Origin: Anaeramoeba flamelloides
Taxonomy: Eukaryota > Metamonada > Anaeramoebidae
Length of the DNA stretch: 64,000 nucleotides
Assembly: GCA_027625915.1 (NCBI GenBank)
Contig: JANTQA010000026.1
Span: 7,440,001 to 7,504,000 of the forward strand
Reading direction: 5' to 3'
Shown: positions 46,045 to 53,574 of the stretch, one piece after another
Position numbering within the stretch: position 1 is the first letter of the stretch
How the letters are laid out: every line of letters starts with the position of its first letter
Position numbers and translations under genes: made by a program
The notes under the pieces: generated by a model
The model's input: the letters and a program-made list of their open reading frames with translations, nothing else
Told to the model about the DNA's origin: nothing
The model's database searches: none

Positions 46045-47298
46045 GCCTCTACTCTCCAGAAAAAAGAAATACTAAAAAATTAATGATCAAAAGCTAAATC
46101 TTTTGAAAAAAGATTAAGGAGTTTACCTCCAAAATTGATTTGAACTTCATACCTTATTGAGTCGTGTAAATTAGATCTTACATTGGATCAAGAAGAAAAA
46201 AAATCTCACTTTTCCTTCAAAATAGGGGTTTATGGTCTGATCAAAACTTTTTTTTAATTAAAGACTTAAATAAAATTTGTCACCGAAGACCAAAAAAGCT
46301 TTTGTAAAATCTATTCAAAATATATATTCAATTGATTTTGGCAAGATCTTTTGGTGTTTTTGAAGGCAAAAATAAAAAAGTTCAATCTCCAAATAAAAAC
46401 GACTTTAAAACAAAATTACGAAAAAAATTTAACTTTGTTGAAGATCGTTTTAAAAAACTGGTATTGAAAGTATTAAATAGTCTTTTTTAAAATTAAAGAA
46501 ACAGGACAGTAAGTGAGTTTGAAGTTTGTCCTGAAAAACTACAATTTGGATGTTTCTGACTAAAAGAGTCTTTTTCAAGATTTTCTTTTTTTTTGAATTT
46601 GGAAAAACCGAGTTGTCAAACTTTAAATTGAAAAATTTACTAGAAAATGGGGATTTAATGTTTTGAAATTGGAAAATTCTAAATAAAATCCGTTTTTTCC
46701 ACCTAAAAAATTAGAATAATTCCTAGGTTATTTTCTAATTAATATTGGAAAATTTTTATTTTAAACTCTAAATCTTTTAAGAATTATTTTTTGACAAACC
46801 CAATACCTTTTCAGAACCAATTAAAAAAGATCTTTTTTGAGCGTTTTATAAGCCTTCATTTTTTATTTTAGGAAAAAATTTTCATTGCGGGAATTTGACT
46901 TGAAGAAACTCTAAATTATATCTCCAAGAAGAAGAATGAAGAGCCAATTTAAGATGAAAATTTTCGTTTACGATTGTTGGTGATATATTTGTATTTATGA
47001 TCGGACTATAAGAAGATCTTTTAGGGTTGTGAGTAAAAATAAAATGTTGGGATTAATTCGAAAATGACAGGAATAAAAAAGTTGAGATTACACATAATAC
47101 TCATGATTGAGAGATCAAATATTATCTTGAAAGTATTTCTTGAAAACATGATTTGAAATTAATTCGTAATTTGAACAAAACAGTTGTAATTAAAAATTTT
47201 TTCCTTTTTATTTATTTTTTTATTTGCAAAGATTTGATCTTAACTTTGATCAGCAGGCTTTTACACATTGAGCAAAAAAACCAAATTAAATCAATTTA
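46045..47298. other. Gene-free stretch upstream of the kinase
   Basis: This is the 5' side of the TTBK-like kinase. It should contain its promoter, but no motif could be singled out and no gene was seen. Confidence 0.4.
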
Positions 47299-50200
47299 AT
47301 GCTAACAGGATCAATTAGAGGGAGATGGAAATTAGGAAAAAGAATTGGAAAGGGGGGTTTTGGCGAAATCTATCTTTCACGAGATCTGAAAACAAAGCAG
47401 TGTGTGGCGATCAAATTTGAAAAAAATGAACAACAAAAACAGACTTTAAATTTGGAGGCTGTGGTGCTTTGCAAATTGCAAGTTTCTGCATATGCTCCCA
47501 AATTTATTTATTGTGGATCGAACTTACGATATAATTATCTCATAATGGAGCTGTTGGGCAATAATCTTTCTGTTGAAAGAAGAAGAAGACCAGAACGTCG
47601 ATTTTCTTTAGCAACAACAATTAAATTAGGAATCGAAATGATTGCTGCCATTGAAGATATGCACCTACAAGGTTTTGTTCATCGTGACATCAAGCCAGTA
47701 AGATAATTAAAACGTTTATTTTTGATTCTTACTTTGTGGTTGGATTTTTTTTCTTGATATTTGGGGTTTTCTGTTTTTCTACTAAAATGGATAACACCAT
47801 AGACTTTTGAAAGCCTCAAACAACCTTTTTTTCGATCAAAACCAGTCATTGTCACAATATTTTTATTTTTTTAAAAGTGGGATAACTCACTTTTTATAAA
47901 CTGGTTCAGATCACTTAAACTTTACTAAACGAACCAAAAAAATTCTGGAAAATGAACAACGGATCAATAACTGTTGAAAATTCAACCAATTAATTTTAGG
48001 ATGAGATTTTGAAACGGTCTCCAAAAACAAAAAGGAATTACTTCAACAACCAATTCCAATTTTTTTTTCAAGTTTTGCCCCTTAAGAACACACCTCAAAA
48101 GTTTCATCGTTTATGGGTAAATTGCAATTTTATAAAAAAAAACTTTTACAAATGAAGAAAACGATTTTTTAATTTTCGAAAATAATGTTGAAAAATGATT
48201 TCTTAATTTTTTCAGTTTTTTTTGTATAAAATTGTGATTTTTCCTTCACTATGATACTTTTCTGGTAAACTCTCAAGGGTAAGTAAACTTGTTTCTATAT
48301 TTGATGTCTTAGTAACGTTCTATTGAATTTAAAAAAGAAATAAAGTGATTTGGTGTCGAAACGTCAATTGAAAAATCGAAATTACTTTTTACAAATTCAA
48401 ATAAATCCAAACGTCATCAATTGTTTATTAAATGGAATTCGTTGATCATTTAAAATATCAAAGTACCAAAAAGTTTTTTGACTCTTGAGGGCAAAACTAA
48501 AAGAGTCTCATAGTTAATGAAAAAATCACAATTTTAACAAAAAAAAACACTACAAAAAATCTCGTGACTAATACAAAGCTTATCACTTTTGAAAAGTATT
48601 TCCACTTGAAAAGTGTTAGAAAGTGTTTGAAAGGTTTGTAAATTGTCTGAAAGTGTTTGAAATTTTTGAAAAGGTTGAAAGATTTATCAAAAGTCATGGG
48701 ATTTTTTGTAGAGAACCGAAAAAAATAAGAAATCATTTTTTTTATTGTGCATGTGTGGCACTTTTTTAAGGTACTAATTTCTATTATTATTTTTTTGACC
48801 AATTTCTAAATAAGGATTCCTTATCTAGAAATATGTTGAACATTGAAAATAAATAGGGGTTTTCAAATCTAAGTAATTGGCTTAAAATTTTCTCAATCTC
48901 CTTTAAATTTAGGTACAGTCAGCTCCACTTTTAAGGCACAAAATTCAATGAAAATTAAGATAGACAAAAAAATCTCAAATTAAGGCACAAAATTCAGATT
49001 CTAGTAAAATAATTTGTAAAAAAAACAAATTCCAAATTTTGTGCATTAATTTGAGATTTTTTTGAGCCTTAATTTTCGTTGAAAGTTTGTGTCTTTAAAA
49101 GTTTAACTGACTGTAAAAATATTTAATAGAGATTATCCCCTTAACAAGAAATAAAAAAATCCTTCCTTTTCCCAATGGCCTTATCTATTTTCCTTTCAAA
49201 TTTTTTAAAAAACGGGCGAAGAAATCAAAAAAAGATTGACAAAATTGAAAGATTGTTAAGGGTCACTGATAAATTCAAATCAATATCTGAAAATTTTTAC
49301 TTTCCTTTTTATTTTGCAAATTTTTTTACTTTGACTTGGAAAAGAGGTTTAAGGTTTACTATCCATGAAATATGGAAAAAAGATTATCTTGTGTCTTTTG
49401 TGACCACTTGTTAATTTGGTTCTTGTCTGATCGATCTTGTGCTTGATATGGGTTTTAATAGTGGTTCAAAATGACAATTTTTGATAATTTATTATTTTTT
49501 TTTTTTCCGAAATCCTGTATTGAAGATTGTAGGATTAATTGGCTGGAAGTTAAGTTCTAAAAAAATGAGATTTTTGGATTGTTGATTGAAAATTTTTAAT
49601 TAGGTTTGGTTTTATTTGAAGCTTTTAAAAACAATTTTTTTTTTCTTTTGTTAGGTTAATTGACAAAAAAGTAAATCAAAATTTTCAATCAACAATCCAA
49701 AAACCAAAATTTATTCTTAAACACCTACAAATCTATTAATCTTACACTCTTCAATACAGGATTTCGGAAAAAAAAAAAATAATAAATTATCAAAAATTGA
49801 CATTTTGAACCACTATTAAAACCCATATCAAACACAAGATCGATCAGACAAGAACCAAATTAACAAGTGGTCACAAAAGACACAAGATATTTTTTTTCTA
49901 AATTTCATGGATTGTAAACCTGAAGTGTTAAAAATAATTTGTAAAATAAGTTGTTTCTTCAAAAAATTCTTTGTCAAGAACCGTTTTGAAAGTCGAGTTA
50001 ATGAATTTCCAAAAAGGAAATTGAACTAAAAAGTTTTTTGAATTTTTTTTTTGAATTTATCAGTTTCATAAGCACCAAAAAAACAAAAAATAAAAAAAAA
50101 AATTAATTCTACTATTTATTGTGAAATAAAGGTATCAAAATTTTTATTCAGCTTTCAAAATAAAGATTTTAATAAATTATCTTGTAAAATTTCAAATTTT

Positions 50201-53200: not shown

Positions 53201-53574
53201 ATTGTTTAAAGAAATTAAAAATTAATTCATCACAAATGATCCAAAACCGGAAAAAAAAGGGATTAAACTTTTATGATTTAATTAAATCTAATTCTATTAA
53301 CAATAATAACATTAACGAAAAAAATAAAAGACAAAACAATATACAATTACAAACTAAGAAACAATTTGGAAAAAATATAAAAGGCCACAAAAATGAAAAA
53401 GGAAAAGAACGAAAAAGAAAAAATATACATAATAATATCAATTTAAAAATTTCGAGCAAGGATATTTCTTCAAAAAAGAAAAAACAAATTAAAATTAAGA
53501 AACGAATTAAGGAAAAAGAATCTTTTGAAACTGAAATAGTTGAAAGACAGTTTTGTCGCTGTATTATCCAATAA
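47299..53574 (+). CDS. Tau-tubulin-kinase-like (CK1 group) Ser/Thr kinase with CaaX tail
   Basis: Exons 47299-47697 and 52321-53574 join in phase 0 into 550 residues. Kinase marks in order: P-loop IGKGGFGEIY (16-25), Lys39 of VAIK, Glu53, FVHRDIKP (126-133, Asp130 catalytic) joined to SNF (134-136), DFG at 168-170, then RNN-like [42 protein letters not shown], the wording of TTBK/Asator kinases (GFRGTVRYASVNAH, DDLWSLFYMLVEF). About 20 extra residues precede the DFG strand. After the kinase domain the tail is Lys/Asn-rich and strongly basic, ending ...CRCIIQ; the last four residues form a CaaX prenylation box. CK1-group kinases phosphorylate acidic or primed Ser/Thr sites; TTBKs act on tubulin-associated proteins, but the substrate here is unknown. 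Confidence 0.92.
48226..48541. repeat. Inverted-repeat element G
   Basis: AAAATTGTGATTTTTCCTTC, CTATGATACTTTT and CTCTCAAGGGT at 48229-48281 are answered in complement by ACTCTTGAGGGC, CTCATAGTTAATG and AAAATCACAATTTTAAC at 48480-48541, about 55 bp imperfect. Single copy in this window. Confidence 0.55.
48766..49144 (+). mobile_element. MITE family C, copy C4, interrupted by B3
   Basis: The ends TTAAGGTACTAATTTCTATT and GAGATTATCCCCTTAA and the interior match C1-C3. Element B3 plus its duplicated TA accounts for 200 bp; removing it leaves 179 bp, the exact length of C3. Confidence 0.85.
48916..49113. mobile_element. Palindromic MITE family B, copy B3 (nested in C4)
   Basis: A 198-bp palindrome, CAGTCAGCTCCACTTTTAAG at the left and ...AAAAGTTTAACTGACTG at the right, flanked by TA. 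It lies inside C4, within the kinase intron. Confidence 0.85.
49349..49922. mobile_element. Foldback element F1
   Basis: About 574 bp with two arms of 200-260 bp that are close complements: GATTATCTTGTGTCTTTTGT, GACCACTTGTTAATTTGGTT, CTTGTCTGATCGATCTTGTG, ATATGGGTTTTAATAGTGGT and TTTCCGAAATCCTGTATTGA all recur in complement on the right. This is the best preserved member of family F here, which suggests recent insertion. Apparent frames inside are not real genes. Confidence 0.9.
50110..50345. mobile_element. MITE family J, copy J2
   Basis: The left end TACTATTTATTGTGAAATAA and the complement-type right end TTATTTTGTAACAAACATTA match J1 and J3; it lies in the kinase intron. Confidence 0.6.
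50974..51175. mobile_element. Palindromic MITE family B, copy B4
   Basis: A diverged copy: GACAGTTTCACTTTTACGTC at the left, AGAAAGTTTGTACCGTAAAA and CCAACTGTA at the right, around a TTATTTTTCTAGAATTT centre. Confidence 0.75.

Follow-up and report, generated by a model that had tools for sequence, protein, structure and literature searches.

The window, a 64,000-nucleotide stretch of the A+T-rich Anaeramoeba flamelloides genome (G000:C26:7440001-7504000; 254 Mb in 76 contigs), carries a TTBK/CK1-type kinase gene (47299-53574, + strand) with two exons and a single 4.6-kb intron that is rich in miniature inverted-repeat transposable elements (MITEs). We conclude with good confidence that this intron grew by successive MITE insertion, most likely from a starting length of a few hundred bases. 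The evidence for MITE-driven growth is strong, and the claim concerns the present content of the intron; it does not extend to a short intron in the ancestor of the clade. We further infer normal splicing, a short starting intron and an origin of the leftover 2.2 kb in decayed insertions. In the mechanism that we propose, a spliceosomal intron, old in the TTBK-like family and placed at HRDIKP|SNF of the catalytic loop, would have received high-copy non-autonomous DNA transposons one after another, some of them landing in earlier arrivals. TA and TTAA targets are plentiful in such AT-rich non-coding DNA, and insertions far from the splice sites would leave the protein unchanged.

The kinase gene and its intron

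Exon 1 (47299..47697, + strand) encodes the N-lobe through HRDIKP in 133 amino acids and matches PF00069 at positions 2-126 (E 4.1e-15). It opens with an ATG at 47299, one base downstream of the start given in an earlier interpretation made without database searches (the sequence-only reading), and its first residues, MLTGS/MLKGS, are common to close paralogues. Exon 2 (52321..53574, + strand) encodes SNF, DFG, the C-lobe and a Lys/Asn-rich tail, ending in a stop codon at 53572-53574. Between them lies a predicted spliceosomal GT-AG intron (47698..52320, + strand), which is in phase 0, 4,623 bp long, 76.5% A+T and bounded as GTAAG...AAG. Removing it restores the frame and gives HRDIKP|SNF in the catalytic loop; both exons are open, the kinase motifs VAIK, HRD and DFG are present, and no further exon between the two is needed for a complete kinase. 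Consistent with this structure, the spliced protein aligned to tau-tubulin kinase 1 (TTBK1; 4nfn) with a phmmer E of 1.4e-80 over residues 6-303, gapless at the join, and TTBK1 outranked CK1 delta (E 2.1e-53) and VRK2 (E 5.2e-24). The sequence-only reading had described one complete kinase split by one intron between HRDIKP and SNF; that description stands, because the alignment runs through the join with its residues intact and the same join recurs in paralogues (below).

By its sequence the kinase belongs to the TTBK family, and activity is predicted from the catalytic motifs. It has HRDIKPSNF and DFG in common with TTBK1 and TTBK2 of the CK1 group, and unlike them this predicted kinase has a longer SNF-DFG insert and a Lys/Asn-rich tail. 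A hidden gene or RNA within the intron was considered and dropped: an Rfam scan of 47000-53800 returned zero families at the gathering score, and the two stop-to-stop frames of more than 100 amino acids within the intron had no Pfam match at E 0.01.

Eight miniature elements, two of them nested

The intron holds eight miniature elements (E1-E8) in six blocks, with two nested pairs, E2 in E1 and E4 in E3. These confident elements total 2,384 of the 4,623 bp. The sequence-only reading, which had counted at least five elements with one nested, was right that there are multiple miniature elements and undercounted them. For each genome-wide element search the best 40 candidates were scored, the window copy included, and the families of E1, E4/E8, E5, E6 and E7 were found to occur throughout the 254-Mb genome; most ends of E1, E5, E6 and E7 were fixed from five fetched copies each.

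E1 (48186..48755) is a foldback MITE found at 39 other places among the best 40 of 562 candidates. It is split by E2 (48551..48708), a foldback with inverted repeats and TA on both sides that has a handful of relatives, in the window and in the introns of three paralogues (C75, L035 and L036). E3 (48766..49144), a MITE bounded on either side by TTAA in this copy, has further window copies at 29215-29365, 19262-19406 and 8630-8763 and is split by E4 (48914..49115), a 202-bp MITE that is bounded by TA and whose terminal repeats begin with TACAGTCAG. Among the best 40 of 1,945 candidates, E4 occurred at 39 other places (88-92% identity, E 2.7e-74 to 1.1e-64); E8 (50974..51175), also with TA at both ends, is a second, more diverged copy of the same family. 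E5 (49349..49924) is a 576-bp foldback MITE with a TTAA target and 231-nt arms that are 88% complementary, matched at 39 other places among the best 40 of 2,793 candidates with E 9.5e-162 or lower. TTAA flanks E5 on the 5' side in 6 of 6 copies and on the 3' side in 4 of 6; TGAA and TAAA stand there in the remaining two, one of which is the window copy. The copy matches of E4 and E5 are far beyond chance. A single search recovered both remaining families: E6 (50110..50343; 234 bp, bounded by TA in all 6 rows compared) accounts for 5 of its 39 other scored places, and E7 (50541..50963), a high-copy MITE whose 3' end is apparently truncated, for 34.

On sequence features, E4, E8 and E6 are classed as TA-target (Tc1/mariner-like) MITEs, being short and non-coding with inverted termini and many copies of uniform size. 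E5 and E3 fit a TTAA-target (piggyBac-like) MITE by their target duplication, the piggyBac superfamily name being one that we assume from the TTAA target alone.

Both nestings are explicit in the sequence. With E4 excised, E3 aligned across the insertion point to the uninterrupted copies at 29, 19 and 8.6 kb; the excision removed four bases too many, so that the TA and two A present in those copies face a gap in the alignment. With E2 excised, the 3' terminus of E1 continued as in four uninterrupted copies, about 12 bases beside the E2 site remaining unaligned. Nested elements that match uninterrupted copies in this way show that insertions followed one another.

The same intron in paralogues

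A genome search with the spliced kinase protein gave 131 exon matches, from which 20 paralogue loci were read (15 paralogues, C21 and L055-L058). The intron lies at the identical position, at both edges, in 17 of the 20, with the junction P|SNF or its variants P|SNY (L036) and A|SNF (L055). Outside this count stand L056 and L057, in which HRDIKP was not found within the fetched flank, and C21 (G000:C21:1188800-1193400), in which exon 1 is open and the donor present, a stop or frame break lies at the start of exon 2 and no acceptor was found in frame; C21 may be a pseudogene or reflect a sequencing error. Paralogue intron lengths vary modulo three, yet the coding frame is kept on both sides, which argues for removal of the sequence as an intron.

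Lengths at this site span a wide range. In 10 of the 17 paralogues the intron is only 134-337 bp. The eight paralogues most similar to the window gene all fall at 273-337 bp (L031, 273; L030, 274; L034, 310; L033, 313; L037, 329; L036, 334; L035, 337; L039, 337), and the intron measures 213 bp in L055 and 134 bp in L058, the two most distant paralogues among those read. The long introns measure 1768 (C26b), 2650 (C29b), 2698 (C33), 4937 (C51), 5486 (C70b), 6047 (C70a) and 6078 bp (C75), alongside 4623 bp in the window gene.

The content of the long introns was compared in five of the seven paralogues (C26b, C29b, C51, C70a and C75). E4 and E2 relatives were found in the C75 intron and two E6 relatives in that of C51, and the C26b and C70a introns had weaker or other repeat matches. 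At a cutoff of E 1e-5, the eight introns of 273-337 bp yielded no match to E1-E8 other than an E2 relative in each of L035 (337 bp) and L036 (334 bp). These resemble a first step of growth and probably represent an insertion separate from that of the window E2, because the latter sits within E1. Two pairs of long introns were aligned and set aside: C26b and C29b, sisters, do not form a clean insertion/empty pair, as sequence found close to the 3' end in one intron lies within the 5' half in its sister, and C51 against C70a gave merely repeat-like matches in mixed order.

Other window repeats also recur at this site in paralogues. A larger repeat at 39028-40344 and 60757-61761 (74% identity between the two window copies) fills much of the C29b intron, at 69-82% identity. 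A repeat of about 540 bp at 4859-5394 has two copies in the intron of C51 and one in that of C75, with pieces in C70a.

Age of the insertions and starting length of the intron

We compared element and gene divergence. E4 and E5 differ from their family majority by about 12% and E8 by about 21%, rough figures drawn from samples of best matches (20 for E4 and 5 for E5, plus the window copies). Between the window kinase and its eight short-intron relatives, 48-63% of fourfold sites differ, uncorrected, over 64-75 sites per pair and with similar neutral rates assumed. The gap between the two is wide despite the roughness of the figures: all three elements stand well below the fourfold-site divergence, and E4 and E5 thus postdate the split of the gene from these paralogues.

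Several points weigh against growth from a short intron, beginning with the approximations in these divergences and the five-gene sample of long introns. About 2,239 of the 4,623 bp carry no confident family. Within them, 47698-48068 has the window's own place as its sole genome match, and 51189-52320 has 39 other places among the best 40, all weak (67-86% identity over short stretches); a weak repeat at 51747..51942, at about 67-75% identity to scattered genome places, lies outside the element count, as does a possible old E1-family fragment at 48069..48185, suggested by a self-inverted match over 48069-48291 at 70%, into which few or none of the other places scored in the E1 search extend. 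The load of the intron is also like that of its surroundings: families that occur twice in the window cover 41.6% of the intron, as against 28.3% of the remaining non-coding DNA (defined by a rough coding mask and without the large inverted duplication), and the intron's coverage is reached by 29% of all 4.6-kb window stretches, so that element density was dropped as a special trait of the intron. On the gene tree the position of the window gene is not settled, and the eight short-intron genes form one branch at only 50/62 support. The fewest changes between short and long introns on this tree number two, and several outer relatives are long (C70a, C70b, C51 and C33, 2.7-6.0 kb). Finally, splicing and gene structure, the exon join included, are predicted from DNA alone.

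The long outer relatives, and the grouping of the eight short-intron genes as one weakly supported branch of the best tree, speak for a history of turnover, in which the ancestral intron was already long, the introns of 273-337 bp were secondarily shortened and the present elements are the latest occupants. We regard this as unlikely, although it is the most serious alternative; it accepts the insertions and disputes only the starting length. The most distant paralogues, L055 and L058, are short, which speaks against it, as do the scarcity of E1-E8 matches in the eight short introns (E2 relatives in two of them, the L055 and L058 introns lying outside that comparison) and the dated elements, which postdate the split of the gene. 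Whatever the ancestral intron held, a large share of what is there now is thus new. The sequence-only reading had proposed progressive growth by MITEs; the short paralogue introns, the nestings and the young elements bear this out. Support is weaker for the roughly 2.2 kb without a confident family and for the ancestral length of the intron in the clade, on which the tree fits a short as well as a long state.

A broader proposal extends growth by MITE insertion to the family: in several paralogues, distinct sets of MITEs may each have lengthened the intron at this TTBK site on their own, with large foldbacks such as E5 keeping the introns spliceable by folding or feeding double-stranded RNA into element silencing. 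The predicted RNA fold of E5 is -312 kcal/mol, versus a mean of -101 over 100 shuffles (z -35.5). Taken as a whole this proposal is doubtful, and any influence of the hairpin on splicing or small RNAs is speculation.

With a predicted join, and with the exon 2 break in C21 hinting that the family may decay, one could suppose that the two exons are not spliced together and belong to two genes, a broken gene or a pseudogene. This is very improbable, given the open exons, the kinase motifs, the canonical splice sites and a join kept in 17 of 20 loci. Least credible of all, and rejected, is birth of the intron from a transposon whose ends form the splice sites, on the pattern of the inverted-repeat introners reported for Amoebophrya (PMC7789003). 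Element ends do not coincide with intron ends: the confident edge closest to the donor, that of E1, is 488 bp away, and the one closest to the acceptor, that of E8, is 1,145 bp away. Paralogues moreover share the intron at lengths of 134-337 bp, and in the eight of them with 273-337 bp only E2 relatives were found, in two introns.

Relation to known systems

Intron growth by transposons is often inferred from genome-wide averages. The process itself is well known, and the useful part here is the length series among paralogues: one homologous intron, from 134 to 6,078 bp long, is present in the window gene and 17 paralogues, at least 18 copies in all, with identifiable, nested and datable insertions, and the order, rate and tolerance of intron growth would be measurable without a second species.

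MITEs that alter intron length are described in plants, for carrot and tea (PMC5422474 and PMC9519581). As in the kinase intron, miniature DNA transposons there change length between copies; unlike those cases, the present one concerns paralogues of one kinase family within one genome, with a 45-fold range at one homologous site. The Amoebophrya introners likewise are repeated inverted-repeat elements tied to introns in a protist, but according to PMC7789003 they are the introns themselves, with repeats at the splice boundaries, whereas the kinase elements lie well inside a pre-existing canonical intron. Anaeramoeba nuclear genomes are described in PMC11550330 as A+T-rich, with GT-AG introns and expanded gene families; A. 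ignava introns are given there as 91.86% A+T, against 76.5% for the window kinase intron. Within the set of papers searched, none was found on Anaeramoeba together with transposable elements.

Other features of the window

Long introns in the window may not be unique to the kinase. A PAS/GAF-domain gene (about 36189-34415, - strand) is apparently interrupted by an intron of roughly 1.8 kb with approximate splice sites. The sequence-only reading had called the kinase gene a compact-looking protist gene and had set its intron against a 51-nt intron of ISY1. A 51-nt GTAAG...TTCAG stretch does exist in ISY1; its length is divisible by three and no stop interrupts its frame, which means that it could be coding, so that the contrast rests on a candidate intron and is unproven. 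Compactness does not suit a genome of 254 Mb.

In a search for an autonomous partner of E4, 150 DDE_3 matches were scored and 16 loci fetched, and none was a convincing transposase unit with E4 ends. One locus that had appeared to place a transposase between perfect E4 ends, L105, was rejected as separate E4 copies beside a transposase; in L105 and L093 alike, E4 copies, three per locus, flank a DDE_3 transposase frame on either side. Eight of the 16 fetched loci (L094, L096-L099, L101, L103 and L104) have a transposase between inverted repeats with TATAGTCTACGA, about 1.3 kb apart, and represent a uniform Tc1-like family with ends unrelated to E4. The window itself has a remnant of a DDE_3 (Tc1-like) transposase at 11249-11641 (- strand; E 2.3e-7), the flanking sequence of which recurs at 24.7-26.0 and 44.4-44.9 kb.

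A 2.6-kb inverted duplication (12981-15565 and 20598-23175, 92% identity) encodes an Asn/Glu-rich protein, and the position at which its frame is broken differs between the two copies; the frame at 13922-15130 had no Pfam match. Imperfect repeats occupy 41599-41976, with arrays of the heptamer AACTGGC at 41670 and 41889.

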